Below, piece by piece: positions 20,714 to 29,925 of a stretch of 33,453 nt of DNA. Both the position numbers and the translations under genes were made by a program. Each line of letters opens with the position of its first letter. Within the stretch, counting starts at the first letter, position 1. Under the pieces are notes generated by a model that searched no databases, had not been told where the DNA came from, and saw nothing but the letters and a program-made list of their open reading frames with translations. Source of the stretch: Balneolaceae bacterium (GTDB lineage Bacteria > Bacteroidota > Rhodothermia > Balneolales > Balneolaceae); NCBI GenBank assembly GCA_007694095.1, contig RECI01000208.1:1-33453 (forward strand), read 5' to 3'.

Positions 20714-21727
20714 TTAGGCTGTATTACAGTTATTTCTCATTTTTTCCAGAACAGTTGCAAAATCTGCCGGCAGCATCGAATCAAATTCGACAAACTCTTC
20801 TGTTCCCGGGTGCACAAAACCAAGGGTTTTTGCATGCAGTGCCTGCCGTTGTAGTGTTTCGAACATATTTCTGAACATTGCTTTCCTCGAACCGGTATTT
20901 GGCCCGTACCTCACATAATCGCCTCCATATGTACGGTCTCCAAAAACATAATATTTTGCATGATGCAAATGAACCCGGATCTGATGAGTGCGGCCGGTTT
21001 CAAGCTGAATCTCAAGCAGGGCAAGGTGGTCAAATTTCTCGAGTAGTTTAAAATGGGTCACCGCTTCTTTACCCCCTTCTTTAAGCACCTTCATGATTTT
21101 TCTGTCTTTTGGTGACCTGCCAATATTTCCATCAATGGTTCCAGATTCCGGAGGATATCCCCAAACAATGGCCCAATACGTTCGCTTTACTTTCTTTTTC
21201 GAAAATTGTTTGGCCAGTTTTTGGTGAACATATTCATTTTTCGCCACCACTAGCAGACCGCTTGTATCCTTGTCGAGGCGGTGAACAATTCCGGGTCTCA
21301 AGGTTTCATTATCGGCATTCGATAAATGTTGCCCTGTATGATAAAGAAGACCATTAACCAGGGTTCCGGACCAGTTGCCGTATGCAGGGTGTACAACCAT
21401 CTCCGGCGGTTTGTTTACCACAAGCAGGTGATCATCTTCGTACACTATATCGAGATCCATTTTTTCCGGCTTTGCCTTTTGCGGAGGAGGTTTTGGAAGT
21501 GAAATTTCAATTTTATCTCCACCCTGCATTACATATGATGCTTTTTCAAGCCTCCCGTTTACAAGTACATAGCCGTCCTTAATGGCCTTCTGAACCTTGT
21601 TTCGTGTTGCATTTTGCACAAACGAAGTTATGTACTTGTCAAGACGCAGTTCTGTCGATTGACCTTTGGGAACTTCAAGTAGATATTCAGTCTTTTTGGC
21701 ATCTTCTTTTTCTATAAGCATAGACAT
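20714..21727 (-). CDS. rluD: RluA/RluD-family ribosomal large-subunit pseudouridine synthase
   Basis: Converts uridines of 23S rRNA to pseudouridine. An S4 RNA-binding domain (about residues 18-75, RLDKYITSFV...AIKDGYVLVNG) precedes the catalytic domain with motif PGIVHRLDKDTSGLLVVAK, whose HRLD Asp is the nucleophile. GRTHQIRVHLHH follows. The S4 domain and length (337 aa) favour RluD over RluA or RluC. I take the ATG at 21727; the frame continues one TTG codon upstream, and a further ATG lies at 21721. TATGTTTG, a -7 box match, sits directly before the 21727 ATG, so the transcript may begin within these codons and favour the 21721 ATG. Confidence 0.92.
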   Translation of the reverse strand: MSMLIEKEDAKKTEYLLEVPKGQSTELRLDKYITSFVQNATRNKVQKAIKDGYVLVNGRLEKASYVMQGGDKIEISLPKPPPQKAKPEKMDLDIVYEDDHLLVVNKPPEMVVHPAYGNWSGTLVNGLLYHTGQHLSNADNETLRPGIVHRLDKDTSGLLVVAKNEYVHQKLAKQFSKKKVKRTYWAIVWGYPPESGTIDGNIGRSPKDRKIMKVLKEGGKEAVTHFKLLEKFDHLALLEIQLETGRTHQIRVHLHHAKYYVFGDRTYGGDYVRYGPNTGSRKAMFRNMFETLQRQALHAKTLGFVHPGTEEFVEFDSMLPADFATVLEKMRNNCNTA

Positions 21728-21906
21728 CAAACATACAAATAATCTCTCATTTATGCCTGATCCGGACTTTATGGAAATATTTTAACTTTTTTTGTAAGAA
21801 AATTGGAAAAACGGGTTCATACTAATGACTATTTATTAAGGCGAGAGCTATTATCCGCACTTAACAGAGAGAAATTATTAAGGTGAGTAATGAAATCAAG
21901 AGAGGA

Positions 21907-21953
21907 AAAGCCGCTGATAGCATTAATTTGCTGTTTGCGGCTTTCTTTTTTTT
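21907..21953 (+). terminator. Strong hairpin with T-tract, plus strand, no gene upstream
   Basis: AAAGCCGC (21907-21914) pairs with GCGGCTTT (21937-21944), with an inner AGCA/TGCT stem, then a run of eight Ts (21946-21953) on the plus strand. It lies just after the HtrA-like gene on the minus strand, for which the tail is only TTTTCC. It may be bidirectional, but its best T-tract serves a plus-strand transcript that would start somewhere in 21730-21880. Confidence 0.75.
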
Positions 21954-23193
21954 ACTGTGCTGATATTTTCTGCCTTAAAACCATTTCGGTCTCGTAAAGG
22001 TCGTTTTCCCGGATCAGTTCTATGTGCATTGTGTCACCTTCAACATAATCTCTCAGCAGTGCCCAGGCGTGCATTTCACTTACCACCCGTTCATCACCGA
22101 TTTTAACGATCACATCACCCGGCATAATCCCGCATTCGTAGGCCGGGCCGTTTTTATTCACACTGGTTACCAGCAGCCCTTGTACATAAGGCAGCCTGTA
22201 ACGGTAAATTAACTGTTCAGTCATGGAAGTAAATTCCATACCGGGATCGTAATCGAGCATCACAACCCCGGTGGCAAGCAGCTGGGTAACAATTCGATCG
22301 ACTCTGTTGCTGGGTATTGCAAAACCTAAACCCACAAAACCGGCACTTGTGCCTCCGGTGTAGATAAATGTGTTCACACCCACTACTTTACCCTCACTGT
22401 TCAGTAGCGGCCCTCCGGAATTGCCCCTGTTAATTGCGGCATCGGTCTGGATCATGTCAATATATACCCTGGGATTATTCGGATCGGCCCGAAAATCCCG
22501 GTTAATGGCGCTCACAACACCCACGGTTACGGTTGGTTTGCCGTCATCAAAAAGACCAAAAGGATTGCCCAGTGCAATTGCCCATTCACCAACAATGATT
22601 TCATCGGAATTGCTGAATTCCAAAAACGGAAACACACTGTTCTCCGATTTCACGCGCAGCAAGGCGATATCGGTGAGTTCATCGCTGCCGATCAATGTAG
22701 CATTGTATGACCGTCCATCCGTGGTGTGGATCATAATTTCAGCAGGATTACTACCAACCACGTGCTGATTCGTTACAATCAAACCATCCTCACTGATGAT
22801 AAATCCGGATCCCATATTGGTATTTTCGCGGGGAAATTGTTCTCCAAAGAAAAAACGGAGCAGTTCTTCATGAAACGGATCTATCCTCGCAGCCGGGCTG
22901 GTTGACATTACACTCACTACCGCCCCGCTTGCCTGTTCAACCGCCCTTGTAATGGCATTTGTACGGCTTAATGTCAGATCTTCGATGAGTATTTGCCGGT
23001 TCATATCCAGGTTTTCAATCCCCGGTATTTCATCTTCATTTTCGATAAAGGCAGCCGAGAAAGGAACTTCCGTCTCATCTGCAGCAGTTTCCGGGTTTTC
23101 CCCTTCACAACCGGTAAGAAGAAACATCATGCCGGTGATGAAAACAGTTTTAAGAAGAAGTTGTGTCACTTTTCCCAAGTTGTTTCGCTCCAA
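21952..23193 (-). CDS. HtrA/DegS-like serine protease, predicted lipoprotein
   Basis: Envelope quality-control protease. A signal peptide ends in the lipobox LLTGC (Cys29 in the longest form), so it is likely membrane-tethered by lipid. The trypsin-like domain has a complete triad: His144 in TNQHVV, Asp175 in TDIALLR and Ser259 in NRGNSGGPL. One PDZ domain follows (about 325-405, with GLLVTSVNKNGPAYECGIMPGDVIVKIGDE). A single PDZ and an anchor resemble DegS more than DegP. The start is uncertain: TTG at 23193, TTG at 23178 or GTG at 23169 all keep the signal peptide; all overlap nrnA, by 44, 29 or 20 bp. It is translationally coupled to nrnA. Confidence 0.93.
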   Translation of the reverse strand: MERNNLGKVTQLLLKTVFITGMMFLLTGCEGENPETAADETEVPFSAAFIENEDEIPGIENLDMNRQILIEDLTLSRTNAITRAVEQASGAVVSVMSTSPAARIDPFHEELLRFFFGEQFPRENTNMGSGFIISEDGLIVTNQHVVGSNPAEIMIHTTDGRSYNATLIGSDELTDIALLRVKSENSVFPFLEFSNSDEIIVGEWAIALGNPFGLFDDGKPTVTVGVVSAINRDFRADPNNPRVYIDMIQTDAAINRGNSGGPLLNSEGKVVGVNTFIYTGGTSAGFVGLGFAIPSNRVDRIVTQLLATGVVMLDYDPGMEFTSMTEQLIYRYRLPYVQGLLVTSVNKNGPAYECGIMPGDVIVKIGDERVVSEMHAWALLRDYVEGDTMHIELIRENDLYETEMVLRQKISAQ

Positions 23194-24139
23194 TTTGTAT
23201 CAGATCTTTTATTGCCAATTCCAGGGGGCCTTTGTGCCATGCGCCGGCAGCTTTTTTATGTCCGCCGCCCTGAAGTTCGCGTGCCCATATGTTCACGTCA
23301 ATACTACTACGGGACCGCAGGCTGATTCGTACCCCATCATCATAAAAATCTTTCATTAATACAGCGGCTTTTACCCCGGTGATGCTCAGAGGATAGGTCA
23401 CAAAGCCTTCTGTATCCGGCGGTGTGGTATTTGTTAATTCTAACATCTCCTTTGTAACGCTCATCACTGCAATTTGATTATTCTCAAACAACCGGATGGA
23501 TTGCAGCGCCCTGCTGAGAAGGTTCAACTGGCCAATGGATTTATTGGAGTAAATAACCTCAATGATCTCATTTGGAGTGAATTTACCGAGACGCATCAGT
23601 TCCGCTACAATCTCAACCGTTTCGGGTGATACACTTTCAAACTGCAATGATCCCGTATCCGTGATGATTCCGGTGTAGAGTGCCTTTGCGGTCTCCGCAT
23701 CCAAGAATGCCGGATTATCTTCAGAAATAAGCTTGTAAACCAGTTCACATGTCGAGGATGCATCTTCAACCGATATGGATAGTTCAAAATGGTCCTGAGG
23801 ATTGGGATGGTGATCGATCATCCAAACAGGAATTTTTTTCCCCTCGATCCACTCTTCAAACAGTCCAAAACGTGCAAGCGAGTTCCCGTCCAGGCAGATA
23901 AATAAATCACATGTGTCAAAATGTCGGGCGGTTGGCTTTTCGACCGGGAAAAAATCCAGCAGCCACTGCAAATTTTCGGGTACCTCATCATCATTATAGG
24001 CGGCAGCATCAATGCCCTTTTTTTTAAGCCAACGCGACAATGCAACCTGCGCTCCGAGACAGTCACCATCTGGGCGTATATGGGATATAACTCCTATTTT
24101 TTGATACTTTTTGATTTTTTCCAGAAACTCGCTGAACAT
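23150..24139 (-). CDS. nrnA: DHH-family oligoribonuclease / pAp phosphatase (NrnA-like)
   Basis: Degrades short RNA oligonucleotides and dephosphorylates 3'-phosphoadenosine 5'-phosphate in organisms lacking Orn; members of the family also take cyclic-dinucleotide products. The 329-residue protein shows the DHH metal motifs: HIRPDGDCLG (20-29), Asp84 in CLDGNS, and DHHPNP (109-114). The DHHA1 domain at the end carries GGGHKKAAG (291-299). An SD-like AAAGG lies about 6 nt before the ATG. It diverges from thiN and overlaps the HtrA-like gene at its 3' end. Confidence 0.94.
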   Translation of the reverse strand: MFSEFLEKIKKYQKIGVISHIRPDGDCLGAQVALSRWLKKKGIDAAAYNDDEVPENLQWLLDFFPVEKPTARHFDTCDLFICLDGNSLARFGLFEEWIEGKKIPVWMIDHHPNPQDHFELSISVEDASSTCELVYKLISEDNPAFLDAETAKALYTGIITDTGSLQFESVSPETVEIVAELMRLGKFTPNEIIEVIYSNKSIGQLNLLSRALQSIRLFENNQIAVMSVTKEMLELTNTTPPDTEGFVTYPLSITGVKAAVLMKDFYDDGVRISLRSRSSIDVNIWARELQGGGHKKAAGAWHKGPLELAIKDLIQIGAKQLGKSDTTSS

Positions 24140-24459
24140 TGTGACCTTTCTTACTGAATGTAAATTGTAATGTAAATTTGGAACCTCAAAACATAAAACA
24201 TTTTATTCATTGATTCTGATTAAGTTTTCCATACTGGAAAATATTCCCCGTACGGATGCAGGATGGCGTCGCGCTTGTGACCCGCTTGTGACCTCAGGAT
24301 GGCGCAAGTGACCCACTCCATGATGGCGCAAGCGTCCCCGCTTGTGCCCCTCGGGGCTTGTGTCCCACTTGTGACTGAGATGTCGCAGCAGGAACAGATC
24401 CATCTGATCAACATTGCGGCTAAAATTGATATATTTCGGTCAAATCAAATCCGAGTTTT
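24140..24459. other. Divergent intergenic region nrnA/thiN with degenerate repeats
   Basis: No gene is seen. 24255-24390 is a patch of degenerate repeats built from GATGGCGCAAG and CGCTTGTGACCC-like words; it includes hairpins GGCGCAAGC/GCTTGTGCC (24325-24348) and GCCCCTCGGGGC (24346-24357). The promoters of nrnA and thiN must flank it. I looked for a TPP riboswitch in front of thiN and did not find one. Confidence 0.7.
24255..24390. repeat. Patch of degenerate GATGGCGCAAG / CGCTTGTGAC repeats
   Basis: At least three GATGGCG words (near 24262, 24298, 24323) alternate with CTTGTG words (near 24277, 24288, 24341, 24358, 24370). Direct and inverted pairing of these words allows several alternative hairpins. 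The GC content is clearly higher than in the flanks. Confidence 0.75.
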
Positions 24460-25089
24460 ATGAAAGCTGTAATTATTTGTGATGGCGAACTTGCACCGAA
24501 ATATGTAATTGAGAGGGATTTGGAGAACTCTTCCCTTTTGATTGCAGCGGATGGGGGGGCATATAAAGCCATCGAATCAGGATTTTCACCGGATGTGATC
24601 ATCGGGGATCTTGACAGCTACATCCCTTCCGGAGATGAAAAAGCGGAAATCTTCAGGGATCAGAGCCAGGAAACCAACGATCTCGAAAAAGCGCTGAATT
24701 ATGCCAGGCAAACATCAGCAACCGAAGTTGTGGTTTTTGGCGCAACAGGCAATCGGCTCGACCACACCCTGAAGAATTTGTCTGTACTGCTTCAGTTTAA
24801 CCGGCAATTTCATACAATCCTGTTCAAAGACAGGTATTCTGAGATCAGGGTTATCCACTCACCTTTTAGTGAAGAATTTCCGCTTCATACATCCATTTCA
24901 CTTTTTCCGCTCTCAGGTACAGTGGAAGGAATCACAACCAATGGCCTCAAATACCCACTTGTTAATGGTACCCTGGAAAACGGTGTACAGGATGGGAGTT
25001 CCAACGAAACAATCAAAAAAACAGTCGAAATTGAATTCAAAAAGGGAGACCTTCTTCTTCTTGTAAATTATAAAACCGAGCGTGAGTGA
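24460..25089 (+). CDS. thiN: Thiamine pyrophosphokinase
   Basis: Makes thiamine pyrophosphate directly from thiamine and ATP, the salvage route to the cofactor. The 209-residue protein has the family motifs in order: AADGGAYKA (29-37), IGDLDS (48-53), DQSQETNDLEKAL (67-79) and FGATGNRLDHTL (93-104), which hold the metal and ATP-binding Asp residues. The C-terminal beta-domain that binds thiamine follows. Its stop overlaps the start of the sodium:solute symporter as GTGA, so the two are translationally coupled. No THI-box was found upstream. Confidence 0.95.
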   Translation: MKAVIICDGELAPKYVIERDLENSSLLIAADGGAYKAIESGFSPDVIIGDLDSYIPSGDEKAEIFRDQSQETNDLEKALNYARQTSATEVVVFGATGNRLDHTLKNLSVLLQFNRQFHTILFKDRYSEIRVIHSPFSEEFPLHTSISLFPLSGTVEGITTNGLKYPLVNGTLENGVQDGSSNETIKKTVEIEFKKGDLLLLVNYKTERE

Positions 25090-26504
25090 ATTCTGAATTT
25101 GCATTGATCGACTGGCTGTTTATTGCAGCATATTTCTTGTTTCTCATCTGGATAAGCTGGAAAAAAGGGTGGAAAGCCGAAAGTGAAGAAGATTTCTTAT
25201 TAAGCGGGCGCAAAGTAACCCTGCCTGCCTTTATAGCCACACTTGTATCCACATGGTATGGAGGTATACTTGGGATCGGGGAATGGAGCTACCAGTTCGG
25301 AATATCCCAATGGCTGATTCTCGGTGCCCCTTTTTATATCTTTTCGGCACTTTTTGCCGTTTTCCTTGCAGGTAAAATCCGTCTGAATAAAGCACTCACA
25401 ATCCCGGAAGCCATAGCCAATCAGTACAGTGAGCGGGCAGGGCGAATCAGCGCGCTGCCGATTTTTATCCTTGTAAGCCCGGCCCCCTACATCCTGATGC
25501 TGGGACTGCTTTTTCAATATTTAAGCGGCGGCGATGCCCCTTTCCTTTTTTATGCTTCCCTGGTTGCGCTCTTCTCGGTGCTTTACATTACTATTGGCGG
25601 CTTTGGCGCTGTTATCAGGACAGATATCCTCCAGGTTATCCTCATGTTCAGCGGCTTCGTGATCCTGTTGATTTATGCCGTGATCGAGTTCGGAGGTTTC
25701 GGGACACTGATCGGATCGCTGCCTGATGGCCATATGGACATCACCGGCGGACACAACTGGCAGTATATTCTGGTATGGTTTTTCATTGCGTTGTGGACGT
25801 TCGTGGATCCGAGTTTTCATCAGCGGGCGGCAGCAGCAGAATCACCGGCTGTAGCACGCAAGGGAATTTTTTATTCCATTGGGTTTTGGATGTTGTTCGA
25901 TTTTCTCACCTGCTTTGCTGGGCTCTACGCCTTCGCCATTCTGGGCAGCGGACTTGAACAGCCTGTACTCGCCTATCCCATTCTTGCCGACCAGATTCTG
26001 CCTGCCGGAATAAAAGGGCTGTTTTTCCTTTCGTTGCTGGCCACGATTATGTCTACATTGGACAGCTACCTCTTCATCTCCGGTCAAACCCTCGGGCGGG
26101 ATTACCTGCTTAAGTACTTCCCTGCAGTAAAACCAAACCTTCTTACACGGATCAGCATCCTGATATCGGCACTGATCGGTATCCTGCTCATCATTATCTA
26201 TCCAAGCGTGATCGACCTCTGGTATGTTATCGGGTCTATCTTCATTCCCGGGCTGCTTGTGCCTGTTCTCGGCATTTACCTCGTACCATTTCGCTTGCCG
26301 GCACGCTTTGTGCTGTACTCCATCATTGGCTGTACATGCATCTCATTATCTTGGCTTATTCTTGGAACCTGGTATCCGGACTATGACGGTTCCTACACAT
26401 TTTTTGGTATTGAACCATTTTATCCTGGTCTGTTTGCCGCAGCTTTATTGTGGGGCACGGGGAGGTTGAAATTGAGGAGAGGGAGTGAGGGAGTGAGGGA
26501 GTGA
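25086..26504 (+). CDS. Sodium:solute symporter family transporter, thiN-linked
   Basis: A 472-residue protein with about 12-13 membrane helices. The N-terminal part (LIDWLFIAAYFLFLIWISW, then EDFLLSGRKVTLPAFIATLV) and the later GGFGAVIRTDILQ and ATIMSTLDSYLFI segments match the SSS (LeuT-fold) family, which uses Na+ to import solutes. The start is GTG at 25086, inside the thiN stop. Coupling to thiN makes thiamine or a precursor the most likely cargo, as an inference from context; no residue proves it. The last codons are encoded by three GGGAGTGA repeats (26481-26504), the last of which supplies the stop. Confidence 0.9.
   Translation: MNSEFALIDWLFIAAYFLFLIWISWKKGWKAESEEDFLLSGRKVTLPAFIATLVSTWYGGILGIGEWSYQFGISQWLILGAPFYIFSALFAVFLAGKIRLNKALTIPEAIANQYSERAGRISALPIFILVSPAPYILMLGLLFQYLSGGDAPFLFYASLVALFSVLYITIGGFGAVIRTDILQVILMFSGFVILLIYAVIEFGGFGTLIGSLPDGHMDITGGHNWQYILVWFFIALWTFVDPSFHQRAAAAESPAVARKGIFYSIGFWMLFDFLTCFAGLYAFAILGSGLEQPVLAYPILADQILPAGIKGLFFLSLLATIMSTLDSYLFISGQTLGRDYLLKYFPAVKPNLLTRISILISALIGILLIIIYPSVIDLWYVIGSIFIPGLLVPVLGIYLVPFRLPARFVLYSIIGCTCISLSWLILGTWYPDYDGSYTFFGIEPFYPGLFAAALLWGTGRLKLRRGSEGVRE
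26481..26504. repeat. Minisatellite GGGAGTGA x3 ending the symporter gene
   Basis: Three exact 8-bp units, the third containing the TGA stop (26502-26504). Because the unit is not a multiple of three, gain or loss of one would change the C-terminal codons. Purine-rich words continue to 26585. Confidence 0.9.
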
Positions 26505-26805
26505 GGAAGAAGACCTGCCAGAGTGCGCTGCTTTTGCGCTCCTGGCAGAGTCTGGCGTTTGTGAGTGGGAGAGAGGGAGAGAGAGTCTGAATGATTTGCG
26601 GTAGACCGATGAATCGAATTATCGAATGACCGATTTTTCCCTATTTGTAAATGGGTTTATTTGTTCATTGCAAATCGAATTTTGTACAACATTGTGGATT
26701 AGGAAATGTTTGAAAATTGGTGCTTGCGCCAAAGGCGTCCCGTTGGGAGAAATTGAAATTACTGCCATTTTAGGTCGGAATTTAAATTTAAAGACACTAA
26801 CCAAA
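26505..26805. other. Convergent intergenic region with hairpins
   Basis: No credible gene. Hairpin CTGCCAG/CTGGCAG with inner GCGC/GCGC (26515-26548) may terminate the symporter transcript, though no T-tract follows. GCGCCAAAGGCGTCCCGTTGGGA at about 26727-26749 (here given as two words, GCGCCAAAGGCG and TCCCGTTGGGA) belongs to the palindrome family seen at 33420. Confidence 0.6.
26515..26548. repeat. Hairpin CTGCCAG...CTGGCAG
   Basis: Outer 7-bp arms (26515-26521, 26542-26548) and inner GCGC stem (26525-26528, 26536-26539). The words CTGCCAGAGTG and GCTCCTGGCAG echo those flanking the 20096 palindrome (CTGGCAGAGTG and GCTCCTGCC), which links it to the same family. Confidence 0.7.
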
Positions 26806-27090
26806 TCAGGTCGATTTAAGTATATGCCCTAAATTAAGCTTATGGATAGGGATTAGGTACTTGTTTGAAAAAACGTCTTTCTGAATGCCAAGAAGCCCGG
26901 TTCCGCGAAAATCTACCACGCAAAATTTTTCCTCGGTCCCTACAATCTCTCCAATGCCGTAATATTCGGGCGACGGGCCGTAGTAAACAAGGTCGCCGAG
27001 TTGAAGGTTATTCGATGCCCTCCTGTGATAAGGGTAAATCACCGGTAATAAATCGAGTCTGTAAGATAATCGTCGGTTCCTGGTTGCCAT
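26806..27090 (-). CDS. Small uncharacterised protein, barrel-like (94 aa)
   Basis: The gene lies 2 bp after tsaE on the same strand, which supports it being real. The protein opens with a basic stretch (ATRNRRLSYRLDLLPVIYPY, then HRRA), followed by a GDLVYYGP...GIGEIVGTEEKFCVVDFRG pattern that resembles small SH3/KOW or DUF3553-type barrels, which often bind nucleic acid or proteins. The similarity is by pattern only, and I assign no function. Confidence 0.65.
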   Translation of the reverse strand: MATRNRRLSYRLDLLPVIYPYHRRASNNLQLGDLVYYGPSPEYYGIGEIVGTEEKFCVVDFRGTGLLGIQKDVFSNKYLIPIHKLNLGHILKST

Positions 27091-27092
27091 TA

Positions 27093-27515
27093 TTAAACTG
27101 CCTGATGGATGGTGATTTTCCTTTCGTTTTTTTCTGTTGTTTCAATTGTAATTTTTTTGATATCGGGCGGTAAAATTTCCGAAATTTTTTCCGGCCATTC
27201 GACAATGCAAACGCCATCGCCAAAAAAATATTCTTCAGCACCAAATTCAAGCGCTTCCCGAACATGTTTCAGCCTGTAGCAATCAAAATGGTATACGGGG
27301 ATAACCCCTTCATACTCATTGATTATCGTGAATGTAGGTGAACTCACCTCATCCCCTGATAATCCAAAATGACGTACAAAACCGCGCACAAACCGGGTTT
27401 TGCCAGCGCCAAGATTGCCATAAAGGCATATAACATCCCCTTCTTTTACCTTTTTTGCAAACTCCTGTGCAATATCCATGGTTTCTTCCTCGCTTTGGCT
27501 TGTGTACTGCTCCAT
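27093..27515 (-). CDS. tsaE: tRNA threonylcarbamoyladenosine biosynthesis ATPase TsaE
   Basis: ATPase partner of TsaD and TsaB in making t6A at position 37 of ANN-reading tRNAs. The 140-residue protein has the Walker A motif GNLGAGKT (33-40), SSPTFTIINEY, the HFDCYRL strand with its metal-binding Asp, and VCIVEWPEKI, the typical end of the fold. It starts 4 bp after the porX stop and ends 2 bp before the small barrel-like gene, so the three form one operon. Confidence 0.95.
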   Translation of the reverse strand: MEQYTSQSEEETMDIAQEFAKKVKEGDVICLYGNLGAGKTRFVRGFVRHFGLSGDEVSSPTFTIINEYEGVIPVYHFDCYRLKHVREALEFGAEEYFFGDGVCIVEWPEKISEILPPDIKKITIETTEKNERKITIHQAV

Positions 27516-27519
27516 TGCC

Positions 27520-29067
27520 TCATCCGCGTGGTTTCATGGTTGCAACCGGCAAGATCATCTCTTCCATCGAAGCCCCTCCGTGCTGGAATGTATCTCTGTA
27601 CCGGTTCTGGAATTTGTTGTAATTATTGGGATATACAAAAAAGTAATCCTCCTTGGCAATAATGTACGTATTGGCCGGCGGATCAACCGGTAACTGATAC
27701 ACATGCGGTTTGTCAATAAAAATTGCCGCACTTTCCTGGGCTTTCAGGTTCCTCCCATATTTATAGCGCAGGTTAGTAGCAGCATCCCTGTCGCCAAAAA
27801 CCTTGGTATCCCTCATGGAGCGCACCGAGCCGTGGTCTGTCGAAACAACAACCGTAACATCCTCTTTAGCGAGTTCCCTGAACATCCGGAAAAGTGATGA
27901 ATGCTGAAACCATGTTTCGGTAAGCGACCGAAAAGCAGATACATCAGGCGCAAGCTGTTTCAGCACCTCAGAATCGGAGCGGCTATGCACCAGCGTATCA
28001 ACAAAATTATAGATAATGGTTGTAAACTGTGTTTGTGTATAGTTCGAAATTTTATCGGCAATTTTATTACCCTCTTCCGGCTGGATTATTTTTTCATACT
28101 TCACATGGTCGGACAGATGGCAACGCTGAAGGTACCTTTTCAGAAGTTCTTCTTCGTGGCGGTTCAGTGATGACTCATCCTGCCCCATTTCCCACAAGCC
28201 CGGGTATCTTTGCTGAATTTCGAGAGGAAAAAGGCCGGAGTAGATTGAGTTACGGGAAAACGGGGTGGCAGTGGGTAATATGGAGTAATAAAAATCGGTG
28301 TCTATAGTGTAATAATCGTCTAACATCCCCTGGAAAAGAAGCCACTGGTCATAACGCATGCAATCAATCAAAAAGAAAACCACAGTTTCGTTATTCTCAA
28401 GCTTTGGGAAAACGTACCTTTTTAATAAATCAGGGCTTAGCGTGGGATGTTCGCCTTCTTTTCGCTGCAGCCAGCTCCGGTATTCCAGTTTAATAAATTT
28501 CCCAAATGTCTGATTTGCCTGTTGAAGCTGGTCCTGAAGCACCTGCTGCAGAGCTTCATCACCCGATTCGAGATTTAGCTCCCAGTGAGTCAGGGTTTTA
28601 TAAATTTCAATCCATTCCCTCCAGTCGGTCTGTTTACTCAATTTTGAAGAAAGCTCGTTGAAATTCTTCAGGTATGTTTGCGCGGCTTTTTCGTTCTGGA
28701 TTCGTTTTTTATCAAGAATACGCTTGATGGTGAGCAAAATCTGGTTTGGGTTCACCGGTTTGATCAGATAATCAGCGATTTTATTACCGATGGCATCTTC
28801 CATAATCGATTCTTCCTCACTTTTGGTAATCATGACCACAGGGAGGGAAGGCCTCACATTCTGTATCTGTTCCAGGGTAGCCAGCCCATCCATTCCGGGC
28901 ATCTGTTCATCAAGAAAAACAATATCATAGATATTCGACCTGATCAGCGAAACGGCATCTTCCCCGTTCGTAACCGGGGTTATTTCAAACCCGCGGCTCT
29001 CCAGGAAAATAATGTGTGATTTAAGCTGATCGATTTCATCATCAGCCCAGATGATTTTATTAGACAT
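27520..29067 (-). CDS. porX: PorX-type response regulator with PglZ domain
   Basis: In Porphyromonas and relatives PorX works with the kinase PorY and controls the type IX secretion system; its PglZ domain is an alkaline-phosphatase-like phosphodiesterase reported to act on nucleotides. The 515-residue protein has a receiver domain (1-120) with Asp53 in FLDEQMPG and Lys103 in YLIKPVNP, a helical linker (120-210), then the PglZ domain with [11 protein letters not shown] (Asp235), [13 protein letters not shown] and VSTDHGSVR metal motifs. All key residues are present. No porY is in the window. It is first in the porX-tsaE operon. Confidence 0.93.
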
Positions 29068-29394
29068 ATAATGAGACTGTTACAATTTCTACCCTGAAAA
29101 TACGATACTAACAATCAAATAACGCATTGAATCCATGAATTAACCGTGATAAACGTCTAAAAAGTATTTTTTTGAGCCGTAACACCGTACCCCGGGTCGT
29201 GCCGCAGGCATCCCACTGGGGCTGACCCGGAAAGAGACAATCTTCGAAAATGGAAATAGTAGAAATACGATGATTTTCGAAAAACATCCATCGAAATAAA
29301 GATATTGCCAGAAACAGAGTCCGGCCGGGTCAGCGACCCGGGCTACGGGGGTGCGGGGTTGCGGGGGTGGAGGGTAATAAGATTCAGTAATTCG
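29068..29394. other. Intergenic region with CCGGGTC palindromes
   Basis: No gene is seen in 327 bp. CCGGGTC (29192-29198) is inverted as GACCCGG at 29224-29230, and CCGGGTCAGCGACCCGG (29325-29341) is a perfect 7-bp-arm hairpin. CAGGCATCCCACTGGGG between them resembles the tail of the 20096 repeat. The porX promoter should lie within 29070-29160. Confidence 0.6.
29192..29341. repeat. Paired CCGGGTC/GACCCGG palindromes
   Basis: The first hairpin has a 25-nt loop (29192-29230); the second has a 3-nt loop (29325-29341). Both use the same 7-bp arm, and the GC-rich words contrast with the AT-rich stretch between them. Confidence 0.7.
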
Positions 29395-29925
29395 TTAAAG
29401 TGTAATTAATGGAATAATAACCTCAAGCCGCCGCTGGCCGATTCCCCTGATTTCAAGTAGCTGATCTTTGGAGGTAAACCTGCCGTTTTCTTCCCGCCAT
29501 TCCACGATGCGCTGCGCGTAAGCCGGCCCGATTCCGGGAAGTTCCTGTAATTGCTGTGCAGTGGCAGTATTAATATTGACAAGGTCACCAGCCGGCTTCT
29601 GCACTGTACGGGTAGTATCGATTGGATTGGAATCAACGGTAGCTGCTGTGATTTGCCTGATTTCCTGTTCAGGTACCTGCAATGCGGGACGGTATCTTGC
29701 CATAATCGTTTCACGTTCCTGATCAATGTCACGGCTTCGTTCAAAAAACAGTTGCTCAAGCTCAGCGTAGTGATCGGGATCGTAGTTATCTTTCGGTTCC
29801 ACAAAAACATAAAAGCTGCCGGTACAGACAAGTAAAACCAGCAGAATTGTAACTGCAATCCGTTCATCGCGCCGGATTTCGAGTTTTTCAATCAGAAAAA
29901 ATAATTTCCGTTTCATACCTGTCAT
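29395..29925 (-). CDS. Membrane-anchored helix-hairpin-helix protein (ComEA-like)
   Basis: A 176-residue protein with one N-terminal helix (about 24-43, IAVTILLVLLVCTGSFYVFV) followed by a polar linker and a C-terminal pair of HhH motifs, VNINTATAQQLQELPGIGPA and FTSKDQLLEIRGIG, as in ComEA. ComEA binds incoming DNA during natural transformation; whether this one does is not shown, as similar proteins in Bacteroidota occur outside competence loci. The ATG at 29925 is followed by a second one three codons on. It stands alone between repeat-rich gaps. Confidence 0.88.
   Translation of the reverse strand: MTGMKRKLFFLIEKLEIRRDERIAVTILLVLLVCTGSFYVFVEPKDNYDPDHYAELEQLFFERSRDIDQERETIMARYRPALQVPEQEIRQITAATVDSNPIDTTRTVQKPAGDLVNINTATAQQLQELPGIGPAYAQRIVEWREENGRFTSKDQLLEIRGIGQRRLEVIIPLITL

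Follow-up and report, generated by a model that had tools for sequence, protein, structure and literature searches.

The sodium:solute symporter encoded directly after thiN in a Balneolaceae bacterium is in all likelihood the inner-membrane thiamine importer of this predicted thiamine auxotroph, probably driven by Na+ and aided by trapping of the imported vitamin by ThiN. The two genes lie in a contiguous DNA stretch of 33,453 nucleotides (hereafter, the window; Table 1), and both open reading frames, together with the GTGA overlap that joins them, were recovered exactly as the original prediction had described; the arrangement suggests that they are co-translated. Profile searches matched the thiN product to the thiamine diphosphokinase model TIGR01378 (149.6 bits; curated cut-off of 76.4) and to both thiamine pyrophosphokinase (TPK) Pfam domains (PF04263 and PF04265), which places it among the ThiN proteins. 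The symporter belongs to the SSS/SLC5 family by its match to PF00474 (84.1 bits; cut-off of 22.8), which is its sole domain match, PF04973 (PnuT/PnuC) being absent, and its scores against substrate-specific models fall far below the respective cut-offs (PanF, 64 of 328 bits; PutP, 55 of 515 bits). The window yielded no Rfam match, including any thiamine pyrophosphate (TPP) riboswitch, so the pair is without a riboswitch of its own. A short direct repeat (CAGGATGGCGCAAGTGACCC-like; positions 24295-24338) lies in the intergenic region upstream of thiN, and tandem repeats of the GAGGGAGT type (26477-26590) occupy the 3' end of the symporter gene and the region beyond it, possibly making the symporter C-terminus variable.

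Table 1 Features of the thiN-symporter locus, in window coordinates.
Feature	Position	Strand	Evidence
thiN, thiamine pyrophosphokinase (thiamine to TPP), 209 aa, ATG start	24460..25089	+	TIGR01378, PF04263, PF04265
SSS/SLC5-family symporter, predicted Na+:thiamine importer, 472 aa, GTG start overlapping thiN stop	25086..26504	+	PF00474; conserved with thiN; model pLDDT 92.8
GTGA overlap of thiN and symporter genes	25086..25089	+	Sequence
DHH/DHHA1 phosphoesterase, conserved neighbour on thiN side; slot marker, outside the pathway	23150..24139	-	
tsaE, conserved neighbour on symporter side; slot marker, outside the pathway	27093..27515	-	

The pairing of thiN with the symporter is not a chance arrangement. 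Among the 129 genomes surveyed for the order, 83 encode a symporter orthologue and 119 encode thiN (118 over the cut-off). Setting aside two symporter genomes in which a contig edge intervenes (G054 and G101), thiN immediately precedes the symporter gene, in the same orientation, in 78 of the 81 testable genomes; the exceptions are two genomes with the genes on different contigs (G011 and G017) and one with a 1 kb gap (G035). In G011, the DHH and HtrA genes stayed with thiN, and the TsaE and PorX genes with the symporter, a division of the flanking genes which indicates that the block broke between the two partners. The wider block, RluA/D-HtrA-DHH-thiN-X-TsaE-PorX-ComEA (20714-29925 in the window, with the symporter at X), is kept across much of the order. 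Sequences close to the symporter (81-86% identity) bear the label Balneolaceae, in one case Rhodohalobacter, which places the window in this family or very close to it; symporter paralogues in genomes of the order are about 30% identical and located elsewhere. The rest of the class adds only two genomes with an orthologue, which overlaps thiN in both, and a plasmid collection contained no close relative (best identity of about 31%). A scan of GTDB contigs with alignment confirmation retrieved at least 550 relatives from several phyla, the best 80 of which were analysed and originate from Ignavibacteria, Kryptonia, Marinimicrobia, Calditrichota, KSB1, Acidobacteriota, Armatimonadota and other groups; thiN is directly upstream of the symporter in 66 of these 80. 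In this respect the original prediction, which had made its case dependent on conservation of the pair in relatives, is upheld both within the order and well beyond it.

Many of these distant loci also carry the regulatory and outer membrane components expected of a vitamin B1 uptake operon. A TPP riboswitch is found upstream, at the operon level, in 30 of the best 80 relatives (a few short loci being unscanned), and in 26 of the 50 loci among them that offer at least 4.5 kb of upstream sequence. All but one of the 30 riboswitch loci encode a homologue of the receptor that is controlled by a riboswitch in the window genome (E values down to about 1e-131), and a sample of these proteins was identified with Pfam as TonB-dependent receptors; the exception, L144 (Armatimonadota), has a short non-receptor open reading frame between the riboswitch and thiN. 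The order riboswitch-receptor-thiN-symporter was checked in 16 loci, with thiN lacking from L119 and L130. The window genome contains a single TPP riboswitch (C308:88435-88536), directly before the TonB receptor gene and on a different contig from thiN: receptor, thiN and symporter are all present, but in two places, as if an ancestral operon had been split in this lineage. An apparent thiN-symporter fusion in L113 was rejected as an artefact, the frame crossing unknown bases at the junction, and an apparent receptor-TPK fusion (L111) was seen in one metagenome-assembled genome (MAG).

These gene neighbourhoods bear on whether the symporter might instead carry a solute unrelated to thiamine, such as choline, another organic cation or an amino acid, with its position beside thiN an inherited coincidence. 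The substrates of SSS proteins are widely varied and thiamine genes are missing from the surroundings of some clade members, but such a coincidence would have to account for an adjacency kept across several phyla, often behind a TPP riboswitch and a TonB receptor, and for three loci (L119, L130 and L138) that retain the riboswitch, the receptor and the symporter even without thiN. The symporters of these three loci fall in a supported sub-clade together with those of L118, L134, L156 and L161. A separate sub-clade (L123, L164, L172 and L175) lacks thiN at the locus, and a TPP riboswitch was not found nearby; its substrate may differ, in which case the clade is not uniform. Fumarase genes adjoin the symporter in L164 and L172.

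Phylogeny and structure both speak to the same question. In a tree with the Escherichia coli references PanF, PutP, ActP and YidK, paralogues from the same order and plasmid SSS proteins, all 42 clade rows fall on one side of a branch with maximal support (SH-aLRT of 100), and the others on the opposite side, long branches leaving the deeper relations unsure. The symporter is thus outside the PanF, PutP, ActP and YidK groups by tree and, for the PanF and PutP models, by score as well, and the concern raised at the outset that its clade might belong to an SSS group with another proven substrate is not borne out for the known-substrate members included. The AlphaFold2 model (pLDDT 92.8) has a LeuT-type fold whose best matches are CHT1 and SGLT2 (TMq of 0.80-0.84), and it retains the Na2-site hydroxyls of TM8, with S323 in 44 of 44 sequences and T324 in 41 of 44 (Ser in the other three). 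Of the solved structures, the choline transporter CHT1 (SLC5A7) is the top match and the nearest in fold (sequence identity of about 17-18% over the structural alignment), as transport of an unrelated cation might lead one to expect. Choline in CHT1 is held by an aromatic cage formed by W62, Y91, W141, W254 and W406 (PMC11589582, PMC13220886). When mapped through a profile alignment to a bacterial CHT and the published residues, W57 and W379 of the symporter correspond to W62 and W406, and Y/F83 or Y84 lies near Y91; by contrast, S131 takes the position of W141, and no evident equivalent of W254 was seen. Two of the five cage aromatics are thus missing, and the clade instead displays PAPY-like (TM3) and DPxF(H/Y)QR (TM6) motifs where W141 and W254 stand. 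This incomplete choline cage, together with the neighbourhoods described above and the scarcity of ThiC among distant carriers described below, makes a thiamine-unrelated substrate very unlikely, and the partly kept cation cage would be compatible with a thiazolium substrate. For the SSS protein ThiV, the residues described are Tyr78 in TM2, Asp139 in TM3 and, in TM6, Phe254 with His or a polar residue after it (SiaT numbering; PMC11452348). Positions mapped only indirectly give a mixed picture here: Y84 (44 of 44) and F244 (43 of 44; next residue H or Y) may be the equivalents of Tyr78 and Phe254, and PAPY in TM3 leaves no Asp at the presumed position of the ThiV aspartate.

The gene content of the carrier genomes points to a need for the intact vitamin. 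ThiC was found in none of the 129 genomes of the order, with a control search positive in 13 of 14. In the window genome, which is 99% complete, the only ThiE/TenI-family match is partial (25.5 bits), no PF04973 (PnuT/PnuC) or PF02133 (CytX-type) carrier was found, and a candidate ThiY (NMT1 match of 20 bits) was set aside as unconvincing. From the established pathway, a cell that has ThiN but neither ThiC nor ThiE should depend on ready-made thiamine. Across 50 carrier genomes from other groups, for which completeness is not reported, ThiC occurs in 3 (absent from 47) and a confident ThiE in 7, 6 of them over the cut-off (absent from 43); missing sequence can hardly account by itself for a lack of ThiC in 94% of them.

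An uptake of precursors or breakdown products (HMP, aminomethyl-HMP or the thiazole alcohol), with thiN adjacent only by way of the common TPP pool, would be in keeping with the link of ThiV to HMP uptake (PMC11452348) and with the ThiE-family protein that roughly 26 of the order's 83 genomes with the symporter encode. Without ThiE, however, HMP could not be joined to the thiazole, and ThiE is missing from the window genome, from the remaining 57 of the 83 and from most of the distant carriers. Moreover, it is thiN that constantly accompanies the symporter, and ThiN acts on finished thiamine; the carrier that replaces the symporter in some genomes is PnuT, whose Bacteroides family partner imports thiamine (PMC5613172). 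We therefore consider precursor uptake very unlikely and favour intact thiamine, given that ThiE is lacking from the window genome and from most carriers. Several of the order genomes G010-G013 and G015-G017 encode two adjacent ThiE/TenI-family genes, in some cases sharing a contig with thiN and a TPP riboswitch, which suggests an added capacity for precursor salvage.

The replacement by PnuT is seen in the same genomic slot. PF04973 proteins score over the cut-off in 37 of the 129 order genomes and never co-occur with the symporter; nine genomes, mostly incomplete MAGs, have neither. Five PnuT loci (L087, L088, L091, L096 and L105) show the arrangement HtrA-DHH-thiN-[PnuT, convergent]-TsaE-PorX, where symporter genomes have HtrA-DHH-thiN-[symporter]-TsaE-PorX. 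In the tree of the flanking HtrA, DHH, TsaE and PorX genes, the PnuT genomes constitute one clade (SH-aLRT of 100) nested among symporter genomes, pointing to a single replacement event; the mutual exclusion hence does not amount to many independent observations, and a Fisher test of symporter versus PnuT (p of about 4e-24) was dropped as a measure of strength for this reason. Family and position suggest that the PF04973 proteins of the order carry thiamine. In one genome (G111, 92% complete; locus L103), thiN is present and neither carrier was found; the gene after thiN resembles adenosylhomocysteinase by eye, and a search for a third carrier found nothing transporter-like after thiN. The original prediction had asked whether this type of symporter occurs where thiamine biosynthesis genes are missing and PnuT is absent, and the order matches this pattern in lacking ThiC and in never combining the two carriers. 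Conservation of the pair, the absence of ThiC and the exclusion of PnuT jointly support its proposal that the symporter imports thiamine or a phosphate-free precursor, with thiamine itself favoured.

Several described systems share components with this one. The thiamine uptake genes of gut Bacteroidetes, OMthi-PnuT-Tnr3 in Bacteroides (BT2390 and BT2396-2397; PMC5613172), likewise combine a TPP riboswitch, a TonB outer membrane receptor, an inner-membrane carrier and a thiamine pyrophosphokinase, often in one operon and at times at separate sites, which is also the situation in the window genome; here, however, the inner-membrane carrier is of the SSS/SLC5 family rather than PnuT, and the carrier-kinase pair of Balneolales has no riboswitch of its own. 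In Caldithrix abyssi, a TPP riboswitch, a TonB receptor, a sodium:solute symporter and a thiamin pyrophosphokinase were described in one locus (Cabys_3975-3977; PMC5317091), which is very probably the same system; that report deals with one genome and singles out the receptor for thiamine transport, with no clade, survey or PnuT comparison. Among eukaryotes, the SLC5 proteins Dur31 (Candida) and NCU01977 (Neurospora), which contain an SSF domain as the window clade does and are likened to it by description only, have been shown genetically to import thiamine and pyrithiamine, and Dur31-type genes are under TPP-riboswitch control in many fungi (PMC5997356). Finally, ThiV, SSSP and SSSQ are SSS proteins linked to TPP riboswitches and thiamine genes, for which transport of HMP or thiamine has been proposed (PMC4260697, PMC11452348); the window clade resembles them in its operon-level tie to the TPP riboswitch, whereas ThiV of Pelagibacter, compared by description and outside our tree, is tied to HMP and to a pathway with ThiE (PMC11452348). 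The view that an SSS protein would not be among the well-characterised thiamine carriers thus needs qualification: thiamine transport by the family has precedents in Dur31 and in the predicted ThiV, SSSP and SSSQ. A 2021 review devoted to the SSS transporters of prokaryotes nowhere uses the word 'thiamin'. As far as the literature searched shows, what is new is the assignment of thiamine to an entire bacterial SSS clade and its replacement by PnuT, the idea itself being precedented.

Combining these observations, we envision that thiamine would cross the outer membrane through the TonB-dependent receptor encoded elsewhere, behind the only TPP riboswitch of the genome; that the SSS protein would then carry thiamine, an organic cation, over the inner membrane with Na+; and that co-translated ThiN would pyrophosphorylate it to TPP, thereby trapping it. 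Thiamine as the transported substrate, coupling to Na+, co-translation and the kinase trapping step are predictions, and Na+ symport with kinase trapping is the likely mechanism. On a broader scale, the bacterial clade, with at least 550 loci, is probably a Na+-driven thiamine carrier of TPP-riboswitch uptake operons and the counterpart of PnuT, which would make it the first prokaryotic SSS group for intact thiamine, binding the thiazolium through a cage partly common with choline transporters.

The prevailing view of PnuT is that it relies on facilitated diffusion together with trapping by the kinase. With Na+ coupling, a carrier could accumulate thiamine, possibly of relevance in saline habitats. 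If correct, our assignment would provide a substrate for a large clade annotated only as 'sodium:solute symporter' and explain the vitamin B1 supply of many bacteria that lack ThiC, including Balneolota, Ignavibacteriota, Marinimicrobia, Acidobacteriota and others, and the thiN-symporter pair would then serve as a marker of thiamine dependence in metagenomes.
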